64,000 nucleotides of DNA, taken from assembly GCF_042453785.1 (NCBI RefSeq), contig NC_091674.1, positions 19,503,001 through 19,567,000 on the forward strand, in the 5' to 3' direction. Origin of the DNA: Malus domestica. Lineage: Eukaryota > Streptophyta > Magnoliopsida > Rosales > Rosaceae. The notes beneath the pieces are model-generated. The model was not told the DNA's origin and ran no database searches. It saw nothing but the letters and a program-made list of their open reading frames with translations. Positions 5,881 through 64,000 of the stretch are shown here, piece after piece; positions within the stretch are counted from its first letter, which is position 1, and every line of letters starts with the position of its first letter. A program made the translations under genes and the position numbers.

Positions 5881-8800
5881 ATGGCGAAACTTCCCAGCCC
5901 CGAACCCTTCCTCGAGACCCGCCGCGAAACCGACGCCGGAGCCGTCTTCGTCCTCCAATCCAAAGGTCACACGTCAGCCCTTCCCATCGCCGTTTACTCA
6001 ATTTTCCTCCAGTCAATTAATTTTGTTTTTTTTCCTTTTCTAATTATGTTAAAAATATGCAGGGCAGTGGTGGCACGCGGGGTTCCATCTGACAACGGCG
6101 ATAGTGGGGCCCACAATACTGACGCTGCCGTACGCGTTTAGGGGGTTGGGGTGGGGCCCGGGGTTCCTCTGCCTGACCATCATGGGCCTGGTGACCTTCT
6201 ACTCTTACTACCTCATGTCGATGGTGCTGGACCACTGTGAGAGGGAGGGTCGCCGCCACATCCGATTCCGTGAGCTCGCCGCCGACGTCTTAGGTAACAA
6301 AAAAATCTTTGCTTCCGTGGGGTTTTTTTTCTTCTGTTTCTAATTTTGGATCGCTGGGATCGTTCCGTGATTTGGGAATGTTTTGGTAAGCTTGGATTGA
6401 ATGCTTTGAGCTCTGACTTTTATGTGCACGTGACAGTCTGTGCATATTTAAATAAAGGAAGCGGGTTTTGTTAGTTTGTAATTAGTGCTAAACAAGTTGC
6501 ATTTGATTAAGCATTGCTTTTGACTTTTGAGTCATGTGATGCTTCTGCTGAATAAGCACTTGTATATATGGGAGCTTTGGATGGTAAACTAATTAAGTGT
6601 GGGATTCTATTTTTATAGGGTCAGGATGGATGTATTATTTCGTCATATTCATTCAAACGGCTATAAACACTGGGGTTGGAATAGGAGCTATTTTGCTTTC
6701 TGGGGAATGCCTCAAGGTATCTATTGCATCATCATCTTCATCACTTCACATCAACACGTGCAATAATGTGTTGGTTTGTCTATACGGGAAGTGATATCTG
6801 CACACTTGTTTTCTCTCTCTGCACAACTTTGGATTGACAAAATCAAAAGATAATTAAAAGGAGAATAGCCATTTCCAAGCTTATCCTCTCTATCAAACGA
6901 GGCCCAAGGTTAATAAATTAAAATTGGAAAAAACTTAATTTGATCAAGCAAATAGCACATTTTGGGTTCGTGGGGAGAATGATCAGATAGAGATACTACA
7001 TAAATTTTCCATTGTCGCCGCTTTCAAACCAATAGGGATACGAATCTAAGCCTCATCTCAATCTCCCAGTTTCACATCCAAACCGCACACACAATATTAA
7101 AAACGACTAACAGAAAAGCACTTTTTTGTTAATCACTTTTGCATGTTGAGCTGGTTCAGCACAGGCAAACCAGTTACTACTAGCATTTTCTATGGAAACA
7201 ATGTTAAATGGATCAATGAAGATTTGCATGCAGAAACTGCTTTCTACTACGTAGGAGATGTGTTCGTTTTTCTCTTTTCCAGCATTGCAATGCAGTAGTT
7301 AGATTCTATTAACCTTGCATTGTCTTATTGTCATCTTGTTTTATTGTTAAGATTATGTACTCAGAGCTTTCTCCCAATGGATCTTTGAAATTGTACCACT
7401 TCATAGCCATGGTTACCGTGGTAATGATAGTCATCTCTCAGCTTCCAACTTTCCACTCCCTCAGGCACATCAACTTTGTTTCGCTGCTTCTCAGCTTAGG
7501 ATACTCGTTCCTGGTGGTCGGTGCATGTATTTATGCAGGTACTTCATCCTTCAATATCCCATCAACATCCTCATTTATATTTTACTTCCATGCATTACTT
7601 ATACAAAGAAATTACACATGTGTCTTTCTAGCCATCTTTCATGCGGCCATCTTTCATGCAGCAGTGTGCTTTTTCTCGAGTTCAAGGTTTCATTATGTTC
7701 ACCAGGAAAAAAAAAGAGAGTAAATAACTTGATTCTTCCAGAGGAGTTCGAACAACAAATTTTTTCTCGGTACCAAAACTTGCATTGGTCATTAACAACC
7801 CTCATTCCTCCTGAGCTTTCTATTGTCCGGCAGTAATGACGGATTATTTGTCAACAAGGGCCACGTAACGTATTGATTTATTCGATATGAAATTTGTTTA
7901 TTCTAGAATTGAAAGTTCTAATTGTATGGTAAACATGTCTTTTTTCCTCTAGGTGCCTCTAAGAATCCCCCCGCAAGGGACTATTCTTTAGAATCTTCAA
8001 CTTCAACAAGGCTCTTCAGTGCCTTCACTTCCATCTCCATATTTGCTGCTATTTTTGGGAATGGAATACTACCTGAAATACAAGTAAATACTGAGTCTTT
8101 GCAAGTTTTTATCAGTTTTAGAATTCCAAGCTTTCAAATGCTAGTTTGCACGACTGTCGCATGATCTGGTAGCCTGATTGGAAACACCATGTGAATTTCT
8201 AGTTTTAGTGCGAATATCATGAATTTCCATCTAGTGTTGGTGCGAAATTGTGAACATAAAAGAACAATGCCAAAACAAGCTCTTGCTTACCATATGCTTC
8301 TTTATAAAATTTATCATATGCAATGGATCAATGCAGGCAACCTTGGCGCCACCAGCTACTGGAAAGATGGTGAAAGGTCTCGTGATGTGTTACGCGGTAA
8401 TTTTCATTACATTCTATTCGACTGCAGTGTCCGGATACTGGGTGTTTGGGAACAAATCTAGTTCGAACATTCTCAATAGCCTAATGCCGGATGAGGGACC
8501 TTCTCTGGCTCCAACTTGGGTTCTTGGACTTACTGTGATCTTTGTACTCCTACAGCTTCTCGCCATTGGCCTCGTAAGCTTACTCTTGTACTTTTAAGAA
8601 AATTGAAATTTTTTATGTCCTAGGCTGTGTAAATTTGTATTGAGGTAGTCTTTCTCTAATTCGATGCAAGGTTTATTCCCAAGTTGCTTATGAGATCATG
8701 GAACAGAAATCAGCAGATGTCAAACAAGGAATGTTCTCAAAAAGGAATCTCATTCCCCGAATAATTCTTCGGTCGCTGTACATGGCACTCTGCGGATTTT

Positions 8801-28515: not shown

Positions 28516-31500
28516 AGATAAAAGTGTTTAGGGTTTGAATTGTATGTTTATTCTTCTTTCTAGGAGGTAAATATATAGTTGTACAATATCCCACATAATA
28601 GGAAATAAGAATCCCAATTATACAAGGAATAAATTATAGGATTACATTCCTAAACTAAATGGTTGACTCACACCAACACTCCCCCTTAAGTTGGTGCATA
28701 GATATCTCCTAAGCCCAACTTGTCAAGTGAGTCTTGAAACACCTTTGCTGAAATCGCATGAGTTAACACATCTGCTAATTGTCTTCAGACCTCAAGTATG
28801 GAATATCAATCAATTTGACATCTAACCTCAATTTGATGAAGTGTCCATCTACCTCCACATGCTTTGTACAATCATGTTAAACAAGATTATTGGCTATTTC
28901 TCTTGCAGCTTGATTGTTGCAGTATAATAACATAGTTCATTGAGGCTTGAACCCAATCTCAGTGAGAAGAATCTTGAGCCATAACAATTCACAAATTTCA
29001 TGTGCCATGCCTTTGTACTCTGCCTCGGCCATGGATCTAGGCACTACATTTTGCTTCTTGCTTCTCGAAGTTACCAGATTTCCTGCTACGAATGTGAAGT
29101 AGCCTGATGTGGAGCGATCAGTAATGTTTCCTGCCCAATCAGCATCAATATACCCCTTTACCTCCATATGTCTATGCTTCTTGAAGATCAGTCCTCTACC
29201 CAGTACACCTTTCAAATAACTCAGTATACGCATCATTGCTGCCATGCGATCCTCACTAGGAGCATGCATGAACTGACTTACAACACTAATTGCATACACA
29301 ATATCCGGACGTGTAAGTGATAGGTAAATCAAACGTCCTACCAATCTCTGATATCTTTCTTTATTGGTAGGAACTTGATCCTGGTATATCGTCAGGTGAT
29401 GATTCTACACAATGGGAATTTCAACTGGTTTACAAGCCAACATTCCAGTTTCAGAAAGAAAATCAAGAACATACTTCCGCTGAGACAAGTAAATACCATC
29501 ACGAGAACGAGCAACTTCAATGCCTAAGAAGTATTTCAAGCCTCATAGATCCTTCATCTCAAATTCTGATGAAAGATACCTCTGCAGCCTTTTTATCTCT
29601 TCTGTGTTATCACCAGTAACTACTATATCATCCACATAGATAATTAACAAAGTAACTTGACCTCACATGCGTTTCATGAACATGGTGTGGTCTGCATTTC
29701 CCTATTTATAGTCGTACTTTTTCACTGTTTTAGTGAACCTTCCAAAACATGTTTTGGGTGATTGTTTGAGTCCGTAGAGAGCCTTTCAGAGTCTACATAC
29801 TTTCCCTGCTTCATTTGGTGTTTCATATCTTGGTGGAAGATCCATGTATACTTTTTCTTCCAGATCTACATGTAAGAAAGCATTCTTCACATCGAACTGT
29901 TTCAAAGGCCAGTCTAGGTTAGCTACTAAAGATAAAAGGACTCGAATAATATTCATATTTGCGACCGGAGCAAACGTTTCTTGGTAGTCAACTTCACATG
30001 TCTGTGTGTGCCATTTAGCTACCAATCTTCCCTTGTATTTGTTAATGGACCCATCCACCTTGTGCTTTATGGTGAACACCCATTTACATCCCATTGATCT
30101 CTTCCTTTGTGGTAGTGACACTACATTCCACGTTTCGTTTCTTTATAAGGCTTCCATTTCTACTCCTATGGCTTCTACCCAACGGGGGTCTTGCAAGGCC
30201 TCTTCCACTTTTGTTGGAATTTTAATCCCAGCCATTTGATTCGCCATGACTTGGTACTTGGGTGATAGTCGTTGAGTGGACACATATTGTGCAATTGCAT
30301 ATCTCACTTTTCCTTCAGGAGAAAACTTGTTAGGTGGTTTCCCACGGTTTTGCCTATGAGGTAAAATATAGGAATTTTCAACAATATCTGGAGTATGAGA
30401 ACGTACCTCTTGGATATCCGCGGGGACATGAACGTGTACTAGTGGAGGAGAATGAGGGTTATTTTCTGTTTGCACAGTCTCAGTATCACTCGCAGACCTA
30501 TTACCTTATACTGCATCTATAAATGGTGTAGGCCTACTAATTCGACACTGCATGAGCTATCTCTCGATCAGGGGTTTCACGGTCAAGATCTACAAGGCTT
30601 TGGCTTGTTATGTCGTTGGCCACTACTAGGCTCTGAACTGCTATCTCGTGGCCTACTATTGGGCTTTGAATTGATGTGTCGCGACCCTCTGGTAAGGCGC
30701 GGTCAGGTGGGTTGCTCATAACACCTAAGTCTTTAGTCTCGGTCTGGGCTGTACTACTAGGACCATGCCAACTGCCTCGTTCATGTGGAACATCAAACCA
30801 ACTGTAGTCTTCGTATTTACTATTCAACTCTTCCTGAAGAGTACAATGGGTTTGAACAGAGATGAAAAACATCTCGGTTTCAGAAAACGTGACATCCATT
30901 GTGACATAGAATTGCTTAGTAGATGGATGGTAACATCGATATCCCTTTTGTTGGCTATTAAATCCCAGAAATACACAACGAACAACACATATATCTAATT
31001 TACTTCGTTGATTGTTGTGAAGATGCACATAAGCCACACATCCAAATATGCGAGGTGATAATTGGAGAGAAGAAGGTAGAGTGACATAATCCGTCAAAAT
31101 TTCCATGGGAGTTCGGAAGTTGTGAACTTGAGAGGGCAATTCGATTAAGAAGATAAACGGAATACGTAACTGCATCCACCCAATAGGCATGAGGAACATG
31201 AGCCCCAATTAGAAGTGCCCGTGTAGTTTTCAAGATATGTCTGTTCTTAAGTTTTGCCACACCATTTTGTGGAGGAGTTTGAGGACAAGTAGTCTCGTGA
31301 AGTATGTCATGCTCTGCGAAAAATTATGGTAGTTCAGAATTAAGATATTCTCCACCATTATTAGATCTCATGACTTTGATAGGAAGAGAAAATTGATTTC
31401 CAATATCCGATAAAACTGTTGGAAAATTTGCCCAACGTCACTCTTTTGTTTCATGGTATAGAGCCAAGTCATTATGGTGCAATCATCTACAAAGGTAACA

Positions 31501-49338: not shown

Positions 49339-50813
49339 TCCAGCACAACTTCTCCATCACATTCATCATCCCCAACGACGGCTCGCACTTGGCTCCCTAA
49401 AAGAAAGTCCTTGAAGCCTTCAATTCCCAATCCATTTCCTACATCTTCCTCTCTCATGTGAGCTTCCATGACCTCCCTGCTGACGTCATGATCGAGACCA
49501 AGATCACACTAACCTTGACTCGATCCCTCTCGGCTCTTCGCGACTCACTCAAGGTCCTAAACGAGTCAACTCATCTATTTGCATTTGTTGTTGATGTCTT
49601 CGGTGTGGAGGCCTTTGATGTGGCTAATGAGTTCCACTTGTCCCCTTATATTTTCTTCTCTGTTAACGTTATGGGTTTATGGCTTTTATTTCATTTGCCA
49701 CATCTTGACGAGACCACTTCATGCGAGTACAGGGACTTGCCCGAACTGGTTCTACTTCCTGGTTGTGTGCCAATCCAAGGTGGATATTTCTTAGACCCTG
49801 TTCAAGATCGGTCCAATCCGGTCTACAAAGGTGTAGTTCATATCTTCAAGAAGTGCAGGTCAGCTGTTGGGATTATGGTCAACAGCTTTGCGGACTTGGA
49901 ACCTGGTGCTTTCAAGGCTTTCAAGGAAAAAGGGGCAGGTTTATGTCTTCCACCGGTTTATCCCATTGGACCGATTATAAAAACAACAGATGGGTTAGAT
50001 GCAAATAAGTGTTTGAGATGGCTAGATAAGCAACCCTATGGGTCAGTTCTATTTGTTTCATTTGGGAGCGGTGGAACACTGTCACAAGAGCAACTGAATG
50101 AGTTGGCCTTAGGGCTTGAATTGAGCGGGCATAGATTCATTTGGGTTGTCAAGAGCCCAAACGAGACCGCTAACAATGCTTCTTACTTTACTGTCAAAGT
50201 TTGGGAGAACCCGTCTGAGTTTCTACCAAACGGGTTTCTGGAGAGGACCAAAGATGTTGGCCTAGTTGTGTCATCATGGGCGCCACAGGTCCAAGTGCTG
50301 AGCCATGGGTTGACACGGGGATTTTTGACCCATTGTGGGTGGAATTCGGTACTAGAGAGTATCGTGCATGGTGTGCCTCTGATTGCTTGGCCGCTCTATT
50401 CAGAGCAAAGAATGAATAAGGTGCTACTAGTTGATGGTTTGAAAGTTGCATTTGGGGTCAAAGTGGATGAGAAAGGCATAGTGGGGTGCCAAGGTATTGC
50501 TAAGTATGTAAGGGACATAATTGAAGGAGATGAAGGGAAATTGCTAAGGAAGAAAATGGAAGGGTATAAAGAGGAAGCCAAATTGGTTTGGGCAGAAGAA
50601 GGATCGTCTGCCAAGTCTCTTGCTGAAGTGGCTCAAATGTTGAATGGACTCAAGAACTAAATTAACTATAACCTAATGTGTCAATTACTGCGTCTATATT
50701 TGTAAAGTGAATAAAATAAGGGGTAAATGAATTTTAATACTTCTGTTAGATTAAATCTCATATTGAGCCATCAATAATGTGATTTAAAGAATCGAATTTA
50801 GCCATTTAGTATT

Positions 50814-53680: not shown

Positions 53681-53689
53681 TTATAAATA
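53681..53689 (+). promoter_or_regulatory. TATA box of the UGT gene
   Basis: TTATAAATA lies 55 bases before the ATG, which would give a leader of about 25-30 bases. The same motif is kept before the pseudogene. Confidence 0.6.
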
Positions 53690-53743
53690 TTCTTTTTCTT
53701 CCTTGCATTCATTTCATCAAACACTAAAATCCGTATAGCAACC

Positions 53744-55219
53744 ATGGCATTAGACACCCAAAGCCACCGCAGCAGCAACCACCACCACAACGACCACCAT
53801 AAACTGATCAAACCACCGCATGTTACCATCGTCCCAACTCCAGGCCTAGGCCACCTCATTCCCCTTGTCGAGTTAGCCAAACGACTCGTCATCCAGCACA
53901 ACTTCTCCATCACATTCATCATCCCCAACGACGGCTCGCACTTGGCTCCCCAAAAGAAAGTCCTTGAAGCCCTCGATTCCCAGTCCATTTCCTACGTCTT
54001 CCTCCCTCCTGTGAGCTTCCATGACCTCCCTGTTGACGTCACGATCGAGACCAAGATCACACTAACCTTGACTCGATCCCTCTCGGCTCTTCGAGACTCA
54101 CTCAAGGTCCTAAACGAGTCAACTCGTCTAGTTGCACTTGTTGTTGATTTCTTCGGTGCGGAGGCCTTAGATGTGGCTAATGAGTTCCACTTGTCCCCTT
54201 ATATTTTCTTTTCTACTAACGCTATGGGTTTATGGCTTTTATTTCATTTGCCACATCTTGACGAGACCACTTCATGCGAGTACAGAGACTTGCCCGAACC
54301 GGTTCTACTTCCTGGTTGTGTGCCGATCCAAGGTGGAGATTTCTTAGACCCTGTTCAAGATCGGTCCAATCCGGTCTATAAAGCTGTAGTTCATATTTTC
54401 AAAAAGTGCAGGTCGGCTGCCGGGATTATGGTCAACAGCTTTGCGGACTTGGAACCTGGTGCTTTCAAGGCTTTTAAGGAAAAAGAGTTAGGTCTATGTC
54501 TTCCACCAGTTTATCCTATTGGACCGGTTATAAAAACCAGTTCAACAGATGGGTTAGACGCAAATGAGTGTTTGAGGTGGCTAGATAAGCAACCCTATGG
54601 GTCAGTTCTATTTGTTTCATTTGGGAGCGGTGGAACACTGTCACAAGAACAACTAAATGAGTTGGCCTTAGGGCTTGAATTAAGCGGGCAAAGATTCATT
54701 TGGGTTGTCAAGAGCCCAAATGAGACCGCTAACAATGCTTCTTACTTTACTGTCAAAGGCGGGGAGAACCCGTTTGAGTTTCTACCAAACGGGTTTCTGG
54801 AGAGGACCAAAGATGTTGGCCTAGTTGTGTCATCATGGGCGCCACAGGTCCAAGTGCTGAGCCACGAGTCGACAGGGGGATTTCTGACCCATTGTGGGTG
54901 GAACTCGGTACTAGAGAGCATCGTGCATGGTGTGCCTCTGATTGCTTGGCCGCTCTATGCAGAGCAAAGAATGAATAAGGTGCTTCTAGTTGATGGTTTG
55001 AAAGTTGCATTTGGGGTCAAAGCGGATGAGAAAGGCATAGTGGGGAGCCAAGATATTGCTAAGTATGTAAGGGACATAATTGAAGGAGATGAAGGGAAAT
55101 TGCTAAGGAAGAAAATGGAAGGGTATAAAGAGGCAGCCAAATTGGTTTGGGAAGAAGAAGGATCGTCTGCCAAGTCTCTTACTGAAGTGGCTCAAATATT
55201 GAATGGACTCAAGAACTAA
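53744..55219 (+). CDS. UGT72B: UDP-glucose-dependent phenolic glucosyltransferase, UGT72B type
   Basis: This intronless gene of 491 residues has its start in an ACCATGG context. After a His-rich N-terminus, the acceptor-binding half begins PHVTIVPTPGLGHLIPLVEL, whose His37 is at the position of the family catalytic base. The PSPG sugar-donor box runs from Trp365 to Gln408 (WAPQVQVLSHESTGGFLTHC, GWNSVLES, PLIAWPLYAEQ). The final Gln is typical of UDP-glucose users. LPGCVPIQGGDFLDPVQDR and VSFGSGGTLSQEQLNELALG are hallmarks of group E UGT72B enzymes, which glucosylate hydroquinone (arbutin), monolignols and chlorophenols in the cytosol. The acceptor cannot be told from sequence. The tandem copy at 42501 is dead, so this is the only functional member here. 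Confidence 0.93.
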   Translation: MALDTQSHRSSNHHHNDHHKLIKPPHVTIVPTPGLGHLIPLVELAKRLVIQHNFSITFIIPNDGSHLAPQKKVLEALDSQSISYVFLPPVSFHDLPVDVTIETKITLTLTRSLSALRDSLKVLNESTRLVALVVDFFGAEALDVANEFHLSPYIFFSTNAMGLWLLFHLPHLDETTSCEYRDLPEPVLLPGCVPIQGGDFLDPVQDRSNPVYKAVVHIFKKCRSAAGIMVNSFADLEPGAFKAFKEKELGLCLPPVYPIGPVIKTSSTDGLDANECLRWLDKQPYGSVLFVSFGSGGTLSQEQLNELALGLELSGQRFIWVVKSPNETANNASYFTVKGGENPFEFLPNGFLERTKDVGLVVSSWAPQVQVLSHESTGGFLTHCGWNSVLESIVHGVPLIAWPLYAEQRMNKVLLVDGLKVAFGVKADEKGIVGSQDIAKYVRDIIEGDEGKLLRKKMEGYKEAAKLVWEEEGSSAKSLTEVAQILNGLKN

Positions 55220-60700: not shown

Positions 60701-61292
60701 TCCGTGGATTATCTGTCACCTAATATTTTGGCACAATGTTTTCAAATGTTGTATGATAATTGACGTTAAATTGTAAGGTGACAGAAAGTATATGAAGAGT
60801 CACTTTTTAAAAAGAATTATCTCAGAATTTCTCCATGTTATTTCCTACAACAATTTCATATTTTTTTTTTTAATTATTTATGAAATTTTTAATTTTTGAG
60901 TTAAATAAAAATGTAATCTTTTTTATTGAAGAAGAAACGATATTATTTTTGTCTTACAACAATTTTATAGATTTTATCAAATTATTAAATCATACCATAT
61001 ACGGGTGGACTCGTTTCGAGTCCAAATCCATTAAACCCTTTTTTATTTTATTTTTTTTGAATAAACGGGGTTAAAATCGAACATAAAACTGAAATCAGTT
61101 ATAAGTAAAAGAGGAATACTGTAATATTGAGCGGCTGATTGGCCCCTTTTTAAACCTTAAACATAATCGACCCAGAAACCGTCCCAACGTTCTGCCAAAC
61201 CAAAACCCTATAAACTAATCGTCCCGTTTTTAGCTCTTCCTCCTCTGACCGTCGTGGGCACAGATCGGAGCTCCAGTGACTGTGCGGATATG
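60701..61292. other. Intergenic DNA beside the gene-capturing element
   Basis: AT-rich, then a C-rich stretch (61150-61290, AAACCCTA-type motifs and CTCTTCCTCCTCTGACCGTC) like a plant 5' leader. No coding frame supported. Confidence 0.4.
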
Positions 61293-61538
61293 TGTTAGAA
61301 CCCAAATCTCAAACCCTAACTCAAACCTTAACTATTACACATAGAAGAGAAGGAAGGAGGAAGATAGAAGGAGCAGAGCTCCGATATTTTTGTATTGATT
61401 TGTTTTGTAAAATTCTGTTCTCCCTATTAGAGGAAGCTGGGCTCCTTTTATACAGACTATACTCCTTAAAATGCCAGCTGGCATATTTAACAATTCAAAT
61501 TCAAGTATAAACCTCAATTACATTTTGGGTTCATAACA
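61293..61538 (-). repeat. 3' LTR of a gypsy-type element carrying captured genes
   Basis: On the minus strand it starts TGTTATGAACCCAAAATG and ends GGTTCTAACA (TG...CA). It is directly preceded by the polypurine tract CAAGGGGGGAATAT (61539-61553). Length 246 bp. A TATA-like CCTTTTATACAGA occurs on the plus strand inside it. The partner LTR must lie beyond 64000. Confidence 0.8.
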
Positions 61539-64000
61539 ATATTCCCCCCTTGAAAATTAGCCTTGTCCTCAAGGCTTAAAATGGAATTGTGGAAGCCCTC
61601 CCAATTAGTTGCTGTCCTCAAAGCACCAACAAGTTGAATCCAAAGAAGGCACTCATCGGCAGATTCTTCCCAAGCCTTCTTCGAGTCAAACTCCTGAACT
61701 TCCTTAATCAACTTAAGGCATAAATCCCAACAGATAGGGAGAAGATTGATGAATTCTCTTTCTGAAAAACTAGTATCTTCACTGGGCAAACAAAGAGACC
61801 TACAAGCTGCCAATCTTACAGATAGGTCTTTGTCCTGTAGCAATTTGATAAAAGCCCCTTTGGATTCAAACACCTCACTCCTTTTGGCAACCAACTCCGC
61901 CAAAACTATATTCCCATAAGTCCTATACGCAAAAAGCAGAGATTTCCATATAATCACATCAGGTTCAATAGGTGTATCTCTGATGAATATTTCAACCTCA
62001 TTTAACAGATTAGCACGACCAAGAAGATCCCCCATGCATCTGTATTGTTCGATTCGAGGACTGAGCTTATAAATTTCAGTAATGGCTCCGAAATGGTGAA
62101 AACCTTTATCCACAAACCCACCATGACTGCATGCAGACAACCCGCCGCGGAATGTCGGCTTCACATCACTCGACGCTTCCATTTGTGAGAACATTTCCAG
62201 TGCTCCAACAGATTTCCCTTTCATAGCAAGACCAATTATCATGCCAATCAAGGCATTCTTCACCGATATGTTGGTGTAAAAGCCGCCTCTTTTGCAGTAT
62301 GTATGGACACATTTTTTATGGTCTAATGCACCCGAATGCTCGCACTCAGATATTACACAAACAACCATTGCTGCGTCAAAGTCATTGATAACCCAAGGTC
62401 GAGGGACAAGGTTTTGACAACTAACTAAAAAGGACATACTATACTTTGAGAAAACTTCTGCAAGCTGTGCATAAACAAGACCAAATATATTTCCAGCAAC
62501 CATTGCTTCGTCGTCAATAGAATCACTAAGATCCAGTACATTCTCAAGCAGGGATACGGCCTTGGCATTCTCTTCATCCACATGTCCCAACCGGTCCAAA
62601 GCCTTAATTCTTGACAAAGCTGAGATCATATACCCAAGAGCTGAAAGAGATTTATTGATGTTTTGAGATTCCGTAAGACTTTTCCCTTGAACTTCAGTTT
62701 TTTCTTGTCTCTCACTGCCACCCAAATTCAAAAGCCAAAGCTTGCTCATTGTGGACCCTTCAGCAAACTTAAGCTTAAGTACATCAGACTGTGTAACCAT
62801 CGCTTGATTTGCAGACACCATATTGTTGAATTCGGAAATCCCATCATCAAATTTATGCACTTCAGAAAAGAGTTGAGAATAGTCTTCATCCCTCGACTTG
62901 ACTTCACTTTCTAAATTGTCAGCAAGAGATATATGATATTCACAAGACAGAAACTGATCAAGAGATTGAAATCTGCCCACATGCTTTGATCGTAAAGAAA
63001 CTGTCAAACTCAAAGGGGAGGCTTCTTTTCTTTCTTTGAGAGATACAATATCAATGTCCTGATTGCAGTCTCTGTTGGTCCAATATGCAGCAACTTGTGT
63101 AGCAGCCATTGCATCATTGGCAGATGTTACAGCTGCTTTAGCAGCTGATGCTGAGTCTACAAACTGCATATGTCCTTTTTCACCACCAATTGTCCTGCGT
63201 GAAGAACTAATGTTTGGTTTATTAGTCTTAACAGATTGAGGCTGCACACTGTGCACAGGCATGCTGGTAGTACTACCAAAATTGCATCCTTGTATAAGCT
63301 CTTCTGGAGGCTTGAACAGCTCCTGTTCAGATTTCGATGTATCCCACTCAACGTGGTATTCCTTGGCTATCTCCTTCAGGAGTTTCAACTTTACTTCGCC
63401 CATAGGGATTCTAACAGAGAGCTTGTCAATCAGCATGCGATTCACACCACAGTTGGGACGTACATCAACAGCCTCAGATACAAAATCTTTACCATGCTTT
63501 TTCTCAAACACATTTGTTAGTGCGATCAGTTCAGAAATCTCAGAACACCTGGGATAGGCAAATATTAAACTAGCAATTCCTTCTTTGAGACTAGGCAGAC
63601 ACTCCATTTGCTCTGCGATGATAGAAAGTCTAGATACTACTAATTCACATAAGAGCTCAATGAACTCATTGGCAGCCACTGCCCATCCCCTCACAAAAAC
63701 TCTACCTAAAGCAATTGTACTTCCATATTCAAAACCAAGGTAGCAATTTAAGTCAAAATAATGGAGCTGGATGGCAAGATAGTCGAGATGGAGAACTTCA
63801 ATACTGTGAACCAGTGGCTGAATGAACATATTGTCATTCTGTCTCTTAGACATTTCATCAAACAGATCAAATGCATATAAATTTTTCTTCACAAATTTAC
63901 CCACAAGATACCAATTAACCCATCCAAATTTATCTTTCAGGTATGCACCGTAGTAATCAGTCAAAAGAGAAGGGAATGTAGCCTCCGAAGTTGCTAAAAT
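61514..64000 (-). CDS. Chimeric frame of captured gene pieces fused to a gypsy polyprotein tail (5' partial)
   Basis: An uninterrupted frame runs from the window edge (open upstream, so partial) to a TGA at 61514-61516 inside the LTR. Numbering codons from 63964: about 101-227 is an IST1 (DUF292) domain (ELLCELVVSRL, SLIFAYPRCSEI, RPNCGVNRMLIDKLSVR, LLKEIAKEYHVEWD); 266-302 matches the Ala-rich tail of such proteins (FVDSASAAKAA). 404-452 is a kinesin motor piece (SKLWLLNLGGSER, ESQNINKSLSALG), where the switch II DLAGSE is NLGGSE. 535-695 is a PLS-type pentatricopeptide E-region (LSACSHGGFVDKG, YRCMGDLLGRANL, PIEPDVIIWKSLLFA). 699-772 resembles a karyopherin such as KA120 (LLQDKDLSVRLAACRSLCL). 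773-816 is the C-terminus of a Ty3/gypsy polyprotein (TATNWEGFHNSI, LEDKANFQGGNIV). Codons 1-100 and 453-534 are unassigned. Introns are absent throughout. A working protein is unproven. Confidence 0.8.
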   Translation of the reverse strand: MLATSEATFPSLLTDYYGAYLKDKFGWVNWYLVGKFVKKNLYAFDLFDEMSKRQNDNMFIQPLVHSIEVLHLDYLAIQLHYFDLNCYLGFEYGSTIALGRVFVRGWAVAANEFIELLCELVVSRLSIIAEQMECLPSLKEGIASLIFAYPRCSEISELIALTNVFEKKHGKDFVSEAVDVRPNCGVNRMLIDKLSVRIPMGEVKLKLLKEIAKEYHVEWDTSKSEQELFKPPEELIQGCNFGSTTSMPVHSVQPQSVKTNKPNISSSRRTIGGEKGHMQFVDSASAAKAAVTSANDAMAATQVAAYWTNRDCNQDIDIVSLKERKEASPLSLTVSLRSKHVGRFQSLDQFLSCEYHISLADNLESEVKSRDEDYSQLFSEVHKFDDGISEFNNMVSANQAMVTQSDVLKLKFAEGSTMSKLWLLNLGGSERQEKTEVQGKSLTESQNINKSLSALGYMISALSRIKALDRLGHVDEENAKAVSLLENVLDLSDSIDDEAMVAGNIFGLVYAQLAEVFSKYSMSFLVSCQNLVPRPWVINDFDAAMVVCVISECEHSGALDHKKCVHTYCKRGGFYTNISVKNALIGMIIGLAMKGKSVGALEMFSQMEASSDVKPTFRGGLSACSHGGFVDKGFHHFGAITEIYKLSPRIEQYRCMGDLLGRANLLNEVEIFIRDTPIEPDVIIWKSLLFAYRTYGNIVLAELVAKRSEVFESKGAFIKLLQDKDLSVRLAACRSLCLPSEDTSFSEREFINLLPICWDLCLKLIKEVQEFDSKKAWEESADECLLWIQLVGALRTATNWEGFHNSILSLEDKANFQGGNIVMNPKCN

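Follow-up and report, generated by a model that had tools for sequence, protein, structure and literature searches.

The window analyzed here is a stretch of 64,000 nt of Malus domestica contig NC_091674.1 (positions 19,503,001–19,567,000). At its right-hand end lies, on the minus strand, a long terminal repeat (LTR) retrotransposon whose interior is filled by one open reading frame carrying pieces of several host genes. The element runs 822 bp beyond the right edge, and after extension of the contig past this edge (region L009, contig C14) it was found to measure 3,530 bp as a whole, spanning positions 61293–64822 in window numbering. The 3′ LTR (61293–61538, minus strand) and the 5′ LTR (64577–64822, outside the window) are 246 bp each, have TG...CA ends and show 0 differences over the 246 positions. 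A target-site duplication, ATATG on the plus strand, is present at 61288–61292, and flank comparison places its partner at 64823–64827 outside the window. The polypurine tract AAGGGGGGAATAT (61539–61551, minus strand) adjoins the 3′ LTR, and sister copies have a comparable tract in the same position. The primer-binding site TGGTATCA begins one base past the 5′ LTR and has an eight-base match to a tRNA which we take to be the initiator tRNA; the corresponding motif in sister copy L012 is TGGTATCAGAGC. The initial annotation had recognized an LTR retrotransposon with a polypurine tract, and the 5′ LTR, primer-binding site and target duplication that it expected to the right are all present. The recent origin that it considered possible is also supported as far as the insertion is concerned, since the two LTRs are identical. 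No Pfam domain for reverse transcriptase, RNase H or integrase was found in the 1,033-residue frame, and the element is non-autonomous.

The frame is open for 828 codons up to the window edge, in agreement with the more than 820 minus-strand codons counted initially, and for 1,033 codons from stop to stop after extension (61514–64615, minus strand, of which 61514–64000 lie within the window). Counted from its ATG (64574–64576), which is located at the LTR edge and overlaps the primer-binding site, it comprises 1,020 codons and fills the interior of about 3.04 kb, and its stop codon sits 23 bases into the 3′ LTR.

Five clear host-gene pieces and a weak sixth are contained in this one frame, in the order leader, IST1, HIBCH-like, KIN-14R kinesin, ARMT1/DUF89, PPR, importin-11 and tail, and all recognized pieces are in sense orientation. 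The family-specific leader, of which the 3′ portion lies in the window (63680–64000, minus strand as for all the pieces; the whole leader extends to 64576), has no Pfam match and is common to many copies and to Malus and Pyrus proteins. The IST1 piece (63059–63679) matches PF03398 above the cut-off, with E-values from 9.8e-31 to 1.7e-30. It is followed by the weak piece resembling 3-hydroxyisobutyryl-CoA hydrolase (HIBCH; 62921–63067; PDB 6xyw, 4.2e-6), on which an ECH_2 match below the Pfam cut-off in sister copy L012 also bears. The KIN-14R-type kinesin piece (62579–62929) matches PF00225 above the cut-off at 1.8e-11. In this piece the neck coil, which matches apple KIN-14R at 69%, runs straight into the switch II region, roughly 240 residues, among them those of the P-loop, are gone, and switch II reads NLGGSER in the element versus DLAGSER in apple KIN-14R, so that the loss of the N-terminal motor and of the switch II aspartate described earlier is borne out. 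The ARMT1-like/DUF89 piece (At2g17340-like, 62375–62578) was recognized by PDB 1xfi at 6.2e-18, and in L012 and L016, two of the sister copies, PF01937 exceeds its cut-off. The pentatricopeptide repeat (PPR) piece (61859–62377) and the importin-11-like (karyopherin) piece (61607–61855) were both recognized from full-length homologues, their Pfam matches being below the cut-off; the former matches Malus and Pyrus PPR proteins at 62–65% with an in-frame gap of 28 codons, and the latter matches its homologues at 55% with a 29-residue in-frame deletion. The terminal tail (61514–61606), with LSLEDKANFQGGNIVMNPKCN at its end, is common to family members by sequence comparison and presumably resembles a retroelement pol end, a likeness without Pfam support. 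Of the four host genes named in the initial annotation, IST1, kinesin, PPR and karyopherin all stand; its count does not, the HIBCH-like and ARMT1/DUF89 pieces having been missed. The gypsy polyprotein C-terminus received no support from Pfam, in which leader and tail gave no gag or pol match at E 10; one weak match to SH3_Tf2-1, below the cut-off, was seen in copy L032.

The parent loci of the IST1 piece are L024 on contig C15 and L025 on contig C2, and the four introns of each parent are absent from the element. Six of these eight introns have GT...AG ends at the join, and the third intron in both parents (the other two of the eight) has a GT donor with an unclear acceptor. Capture through spliced RNA, as suggested initially for all the pieces, is thus demonstrated for IST1 alone. 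The deletion in the PPR piece is joined at a CATG microhomology with the parent locus L022. In the L011 group of copies, the larger deletion in the IST1 piece begins about 3 bases within an exon. Exon skipping as the origin of the latter deletion was ruled out by the position of this join. Taken together, the CATG join and the deletion start inside an exon would fit jumping of reverse transcriptase better than exon skipping.

A search of the 651-Mb genome (19 contigs), in which 40 of 189 candidates were scored and 20, 3 and 3 regions were fetched, gave at least 79 matches; the family counts are lower bounds because of this share of scored candidates. At least ten copies have a full LTR pair: the focal copy (L009), L010, L011, L012, L013, L015, L018, L027, L031 and L033. 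Among the eight copies with readable ends, six (L009, L010, L011, L013, L015 and L018) have an exact 5-bp target duplication, L027 matches at four of five bases and L012 shows no match; L020 and L021 have only partial LTR matches. L010, on contig C15, carries the chain of pieces found in the focal copy, at 92% over 2.3 kb, and is a further copy of the chimera of the kind that the initial annotation proposed to look for. The focal copy itself looks like a recombinant, to judge from these alignments, because its 5′ part matches L015 at 97% (later parts of L015 differ more, at 84–89%) and its 3′ part matches L010 at 92%.

The family consists of copies with differing captured gene sets behind related leaders. 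Above the Pfam cut-offs, Adaptin_N was found in L018 (with ankyrin, Ank_4, only just at the cut-off), RRM, ribosomal L3 and MFS_5 in L027, P-type ATPase in L026 and L016, SHMT in L031, a BIRD-IDD zinc finger in L032, DUF1664 and DUF7798 in L033, kinesin and ARMT1 in L012, and ARMT1 in L016. Matches below the cut-off in sister copies include, among others, ECH_2, NMD3, HEAT and SH3_Tf2-1. L026, L016 and L032 are without a recognized LTR pair. Ten frames of L031–L033 were scanned and showed no reverse transcriptase domain. Within 4.3–4.5 kb, mostly covering one side, no second LTR was found for L034–L036, which the domain scan does not include. The fusion regarded as uncommon in the initial annotation is therefore present as a chimera but is not a single case, being one member of a Malus/Pyrus family. 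L012, located on contig C7, has partly duplicated sequence on either side of its 5′ LTR (L012:2917–3907), with the longer binding-site motif TGGTATCAGAGC right behind that LTR; this duplication is possibly a template-switch product or a nested LTR piece.

The family is also represented among public proteins, the closest named relatives being Malus proteins. A search with the leader at E ≤ 0.001 gave 10 proteins, namely the unnamed P0001 and nine named proteins of Malus or Pyrus. None of the ten is listed with a reverse transcriptase domain, and their contents extend the set by cyclin, ribose-phosphate pyrophosphokinase and beta-amylase domains; as evidence they are weaker than the loci, because gene models may include neighboring host exons. 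P0001, which probably comes from another assembly, has 1,020 residues, is 99% identical to the focal frame with 9 residues different, and represents a cluster of 23 sequences. Of the differing positions, 12, 69, 341 and 844 look derived in the window copy, 428, 468 and 866 look derived in P0001, and 493 and 543 are ambiguous. An assembly chimera, the case that the initial annotation had named against itself, is very unlikely in view of the second LTR and the target duplication, and is countered by L010 on C15 and by this near-identical public protein. Five pear models (P0056, P0063, P0122, P0124 and P0128) share the family leader or the chain of pieces; their names are coatomer subunit beta-1-like, chromodomain-helicase-DNA-binding protein 1-like, serine hydroxymethyltransferase, chaperonin 60 and inactive beta-amylase 4. 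Such host-gene names on Pyrus family members mislead gene-family studies.

Is the frame kept open, and if so, by what? The minimum number of breaks (stops plus frameshifts) needed to cross the interior is 0 for the focal copy on the forward strand and 21 on the reverse strand, and 60 dinucleotide shuffles of the focal interior gave a mean of 29.9 with a minimum of 22. The other copies need 3 (L018), 4 (L010), 5 (L015 and L033), 6 (L011 and L012), 7 (L027), 14 (L013) and 17 (L031) breaks, against 21–35 on the reverse strands and shuffle means of 28–43 over the copies. L012 holds a repeat insert and has 3 breaks without it. Over the ten copies, the number of breaks per kb increases with the divergence of the LTRs (r 0.93, Spearman 0.89), a count that omits L014, L016, L017, L019–L021, L026, L028 and L032, in which no full LTR pair was recognized.

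Neutral drift was simulated on the focal interior in 600 runs, with the indel rate taken from the LTR pairs (4 events per 89 substitutions). With drift of 3% or of 4%, 0.17% of the runs ended with zero breaks; with 6% or 8%, no run did. At 3, 4, 6 and 8% drift, the simulated share for 3 breaks (L018) is 20%, 7.5%, 0.8% and 0, that for 5 breaks (L015 and L033) is 52%, 28%, 5.2% and 1.8%, and that for 6 breaks (L012) is 70%, 45%, 12.5% and 3%. The focal copy alone departs from the simulation at every level of drift tested; L018 does so at 6% and above. The ratio of nonsynonymous to synonymous substitution rates (dN/dS), pooled over 260 codons shared by nine copies, is 1.06 (0.79–1.47) or 0.92 (0.68–1.30) depending on the choice of pairs, with 0–2 in-frame stops per copy in this codon set, and in 17 segment comparisons with sister copies the values spread from 0.50 to 1.75, their intervals being wide. 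Comparison of the copies with one another shows no detectable constraint on amino acids. When the focal copy is set against the parent loci of its IST1 and PPR pieces in the same genome, dN/dS is 0.37–0.82 in five comparisons, values that include constraint on the parent's branch. The initial annotation had read the open frame as a sign of recent origin or of some constraint, with dN/dS as the check. The young insertion agrees with the former and the dN/dS of about 1 gives no sign of the latter at the amino-acid level, yet neutral drift of at least 3% would be expected to leave more breaks in the focal frame than are seen.

We consider it likely that the focal copy is a young member of a non-autonomous LTR family which repeatedly captures spliced host mRNA, and in which a filter keeps the frames open. 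Both capture and deletion would result from jumps of a reverse transcriptase, presumably provided by a different element, from one co-packaged RNA to another or from place to place on a single RNA. RNAs whose frame is uninterrupted between the leader ATG and the 3′ LTR would spread best: a premature stop would create a long 3′ untranslated part and might expose the RNA to nonsense-mediated decay, which is our favored candidate for the filter. Alternatively, translation may be needed for some other reason. In either case the chimeric protein itself need have no activity. A frame that is open in the absence of sequence constraint is the pattern expected from a filter on RNA survival or translation, and selection on RNA survival alone would predict that stops are scarce while dN/dS stays at 1. 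With moderate confidence, we suggest that such a filter acts on the frame through RNA decay or translation.

Several observations weigh against this interpretation. The parent DNA was examined for the IST1 and PPR pieces, and intron loss was demonstrated for the former only; the element is known here from DNA and predicted proteins alone; and no autonomous partner was found in the copies and proteins scanned. The reverse-strand and shuffle controls disregard that the pieces derive from coding sequence, and an open frame was the reason for choosing the focal copy. The regression of breaks on LTR divergence has an intercept of 0.74 breaks/kb (0.62 without L012), and for their LTR ages the simulated means (indel ratio 0.05–0.10) are 0.8–1.2 for L018, which has 3 breaks, and 1.7–2.2 for L015, which has 5. 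This excess in young copies, together with the intercept, indicates that breaks were probably already present in some copies when they inserted. Moreover, the young copies L018, L012, L015 and L033 fit neutral drift of 3–4%. The excess and the drift fit weaken the case for a filtered family, and strengthen the explanation that no selection is involved, the copy being recent, its pieces derived from coding sequence and the focal copy simply the luckiest one. Identical LTRs leave little time for decay after insertion, coding pieces start with few stops, the dN/dS is about 1, and the four young copies just named have 3–6 breaks, above the age prediction. However, the focal pieces are about 6–17% away from their parents and from most sister copies with zero stops or shifts, no more than 1 of 600 runs kept an intact frame under simulated drift of at least 3%, and such an outcome is uncommon even when the choice among ten copies is allowed for. 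An absence of selection is therefore regarded as unlikely.

The opposite possibility is that the chimeric protein is functional, for the element or for the host, with its sequence under purifying selection. Both the focal copy and P0001, the representative of 23 sequences, have an intact frame, and the dN/dS against the IST1 and PPR parents is below 1 in all five comparisons, although selection on the parent branch is included there. In contrast, the pooled dN/dS among copies is about 1 and the 17 segment comparisons lie on both sides of it, the kinesin piece is without its P-loop and has asparagine in place of the switch II aspartate, and other gene sets stand behind related leaders in sister copies. 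A functional protein is, in our view, quite improbable. A DNA-level capture of the Helitron or Pack-MULE type might also have built the chimera, with the LTRs added afterwards, given that elements of this kind typically carry multi-gene chimeras. This is extremely unlikely here, since the IST1 introns are excised at exon ends, all recognized pieces are sense and in one frame, and LTRs with target duplications are found on copies of differing contents. If the filtered capture of spliced mRNA is accepted, one may tentatively go further and picture the apple and pear family as an mRNA-shuffling machine, in which the filter acts on the openness of the frame and not on its sequence, and which could keep producing long in-frame multi-gene proteins of changing composition and so serve as a generator of chimeric protein-coding genes; we hold this as a possibility that invites more doubt than belief.

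The insertion interrupts a host gene region. The flanks joined on the plus strand read GCGGATATG followed by GAGAAACC, and the ATG within the ATATG duplication is the start codon of an SEH1 nucleoporin gene on the plus strand; of its first 53 residues, residues 1–51 align to residues 1–51 of an SEH1 protein, PDB 9sob, at 2.5e-14 (L009:7323–7483). Since this ATG is part of the target duplication, the element lies antisense between the SEH1 upstream region and the coding sequence, with an ATG on both sides, and the two are separated by 3.5 kb of element. Elsewhere in the window, two adjacent plus-strand frames at 53687–55219 and 49401–50660 read like what we take to be plant UDP-glycosyltransferases (HCGWNS box); the frame at 49401 is without its neighbor's start and looks truncated. 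A C/D-box snoRNA match, snoZ102_R77, lies at 6977–7063 on the minus strand with 48.7 bits, above the gathering score (40), and a minus-strand frame of 223 codons at 30537–31208 is presumably a copia pol fragment, to judge from its motif.

The apple element is a variant of the known multi-gene capture by LTR elements, with larger and more varied contents. In the literature compared, at the level of titles and abstract openings with few subscription papers reached, no name for the apple and pear family was found. It is not a member of the TGTT/AACA LTR subfamilies of Rosaceae: these occur in the same host group and have LTRs of comparable size (152–266 bp), with two AACA families being TRIM-like, but their ends are TG..TT or AA..CA instead of the TG...CA of the focal LTRs, and captured genes are unmentioned in the part of that report compared (PMC5659011). 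Nor is it a TRIM, described there as a small element of 2.1–2.7 kb without coding sequence (PMC5659011), since the focal element is 3.5 kb with a frame through the entire interior. For rice and sorghum, 672 and 1,343 host genes have been reported in LTR elements genome-wide, and multi-gene in-frame fusions are unmentioned in the passages compared (PMC3726574). For the soybean TRIM GmaRetroS15, the section compared describes LTRs with 5-bp duplications, pieces of three host genes that consist of exons only, and several gene-carrying copies (PMC4717578). The apple element likewise has LTRs, a 5-bp duplication and pieces of several host genes, whereas the soybean TRIMs are 1.2–1.4 kb and no long continuous frame is mentioned for them in that section (PMC4717578). 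In maize, the parts of the Bs1 account compared describe segments of three host genes in a new chimeric gene, for which transcription and translation are reported (PMC13317346). Both Bs1 and the apple element have host-gene pieces between LTRs in a hybrid frame (splicing being shown for IST1 in the latter), and by description the apple element would appear to work like Bs1. It differs in its five or six pieces, its 1,020-residue frame, the identity of its genes and its copies of differing contents. The multi-gene LTR captures found in print in these sources, Bs1 and GmaRetroS15, involve three host genes each; a family whose contents are many, whose insertions can be dated and whose parents can be traced would make the rates of capture, in-frame deletion and recombination measurable.

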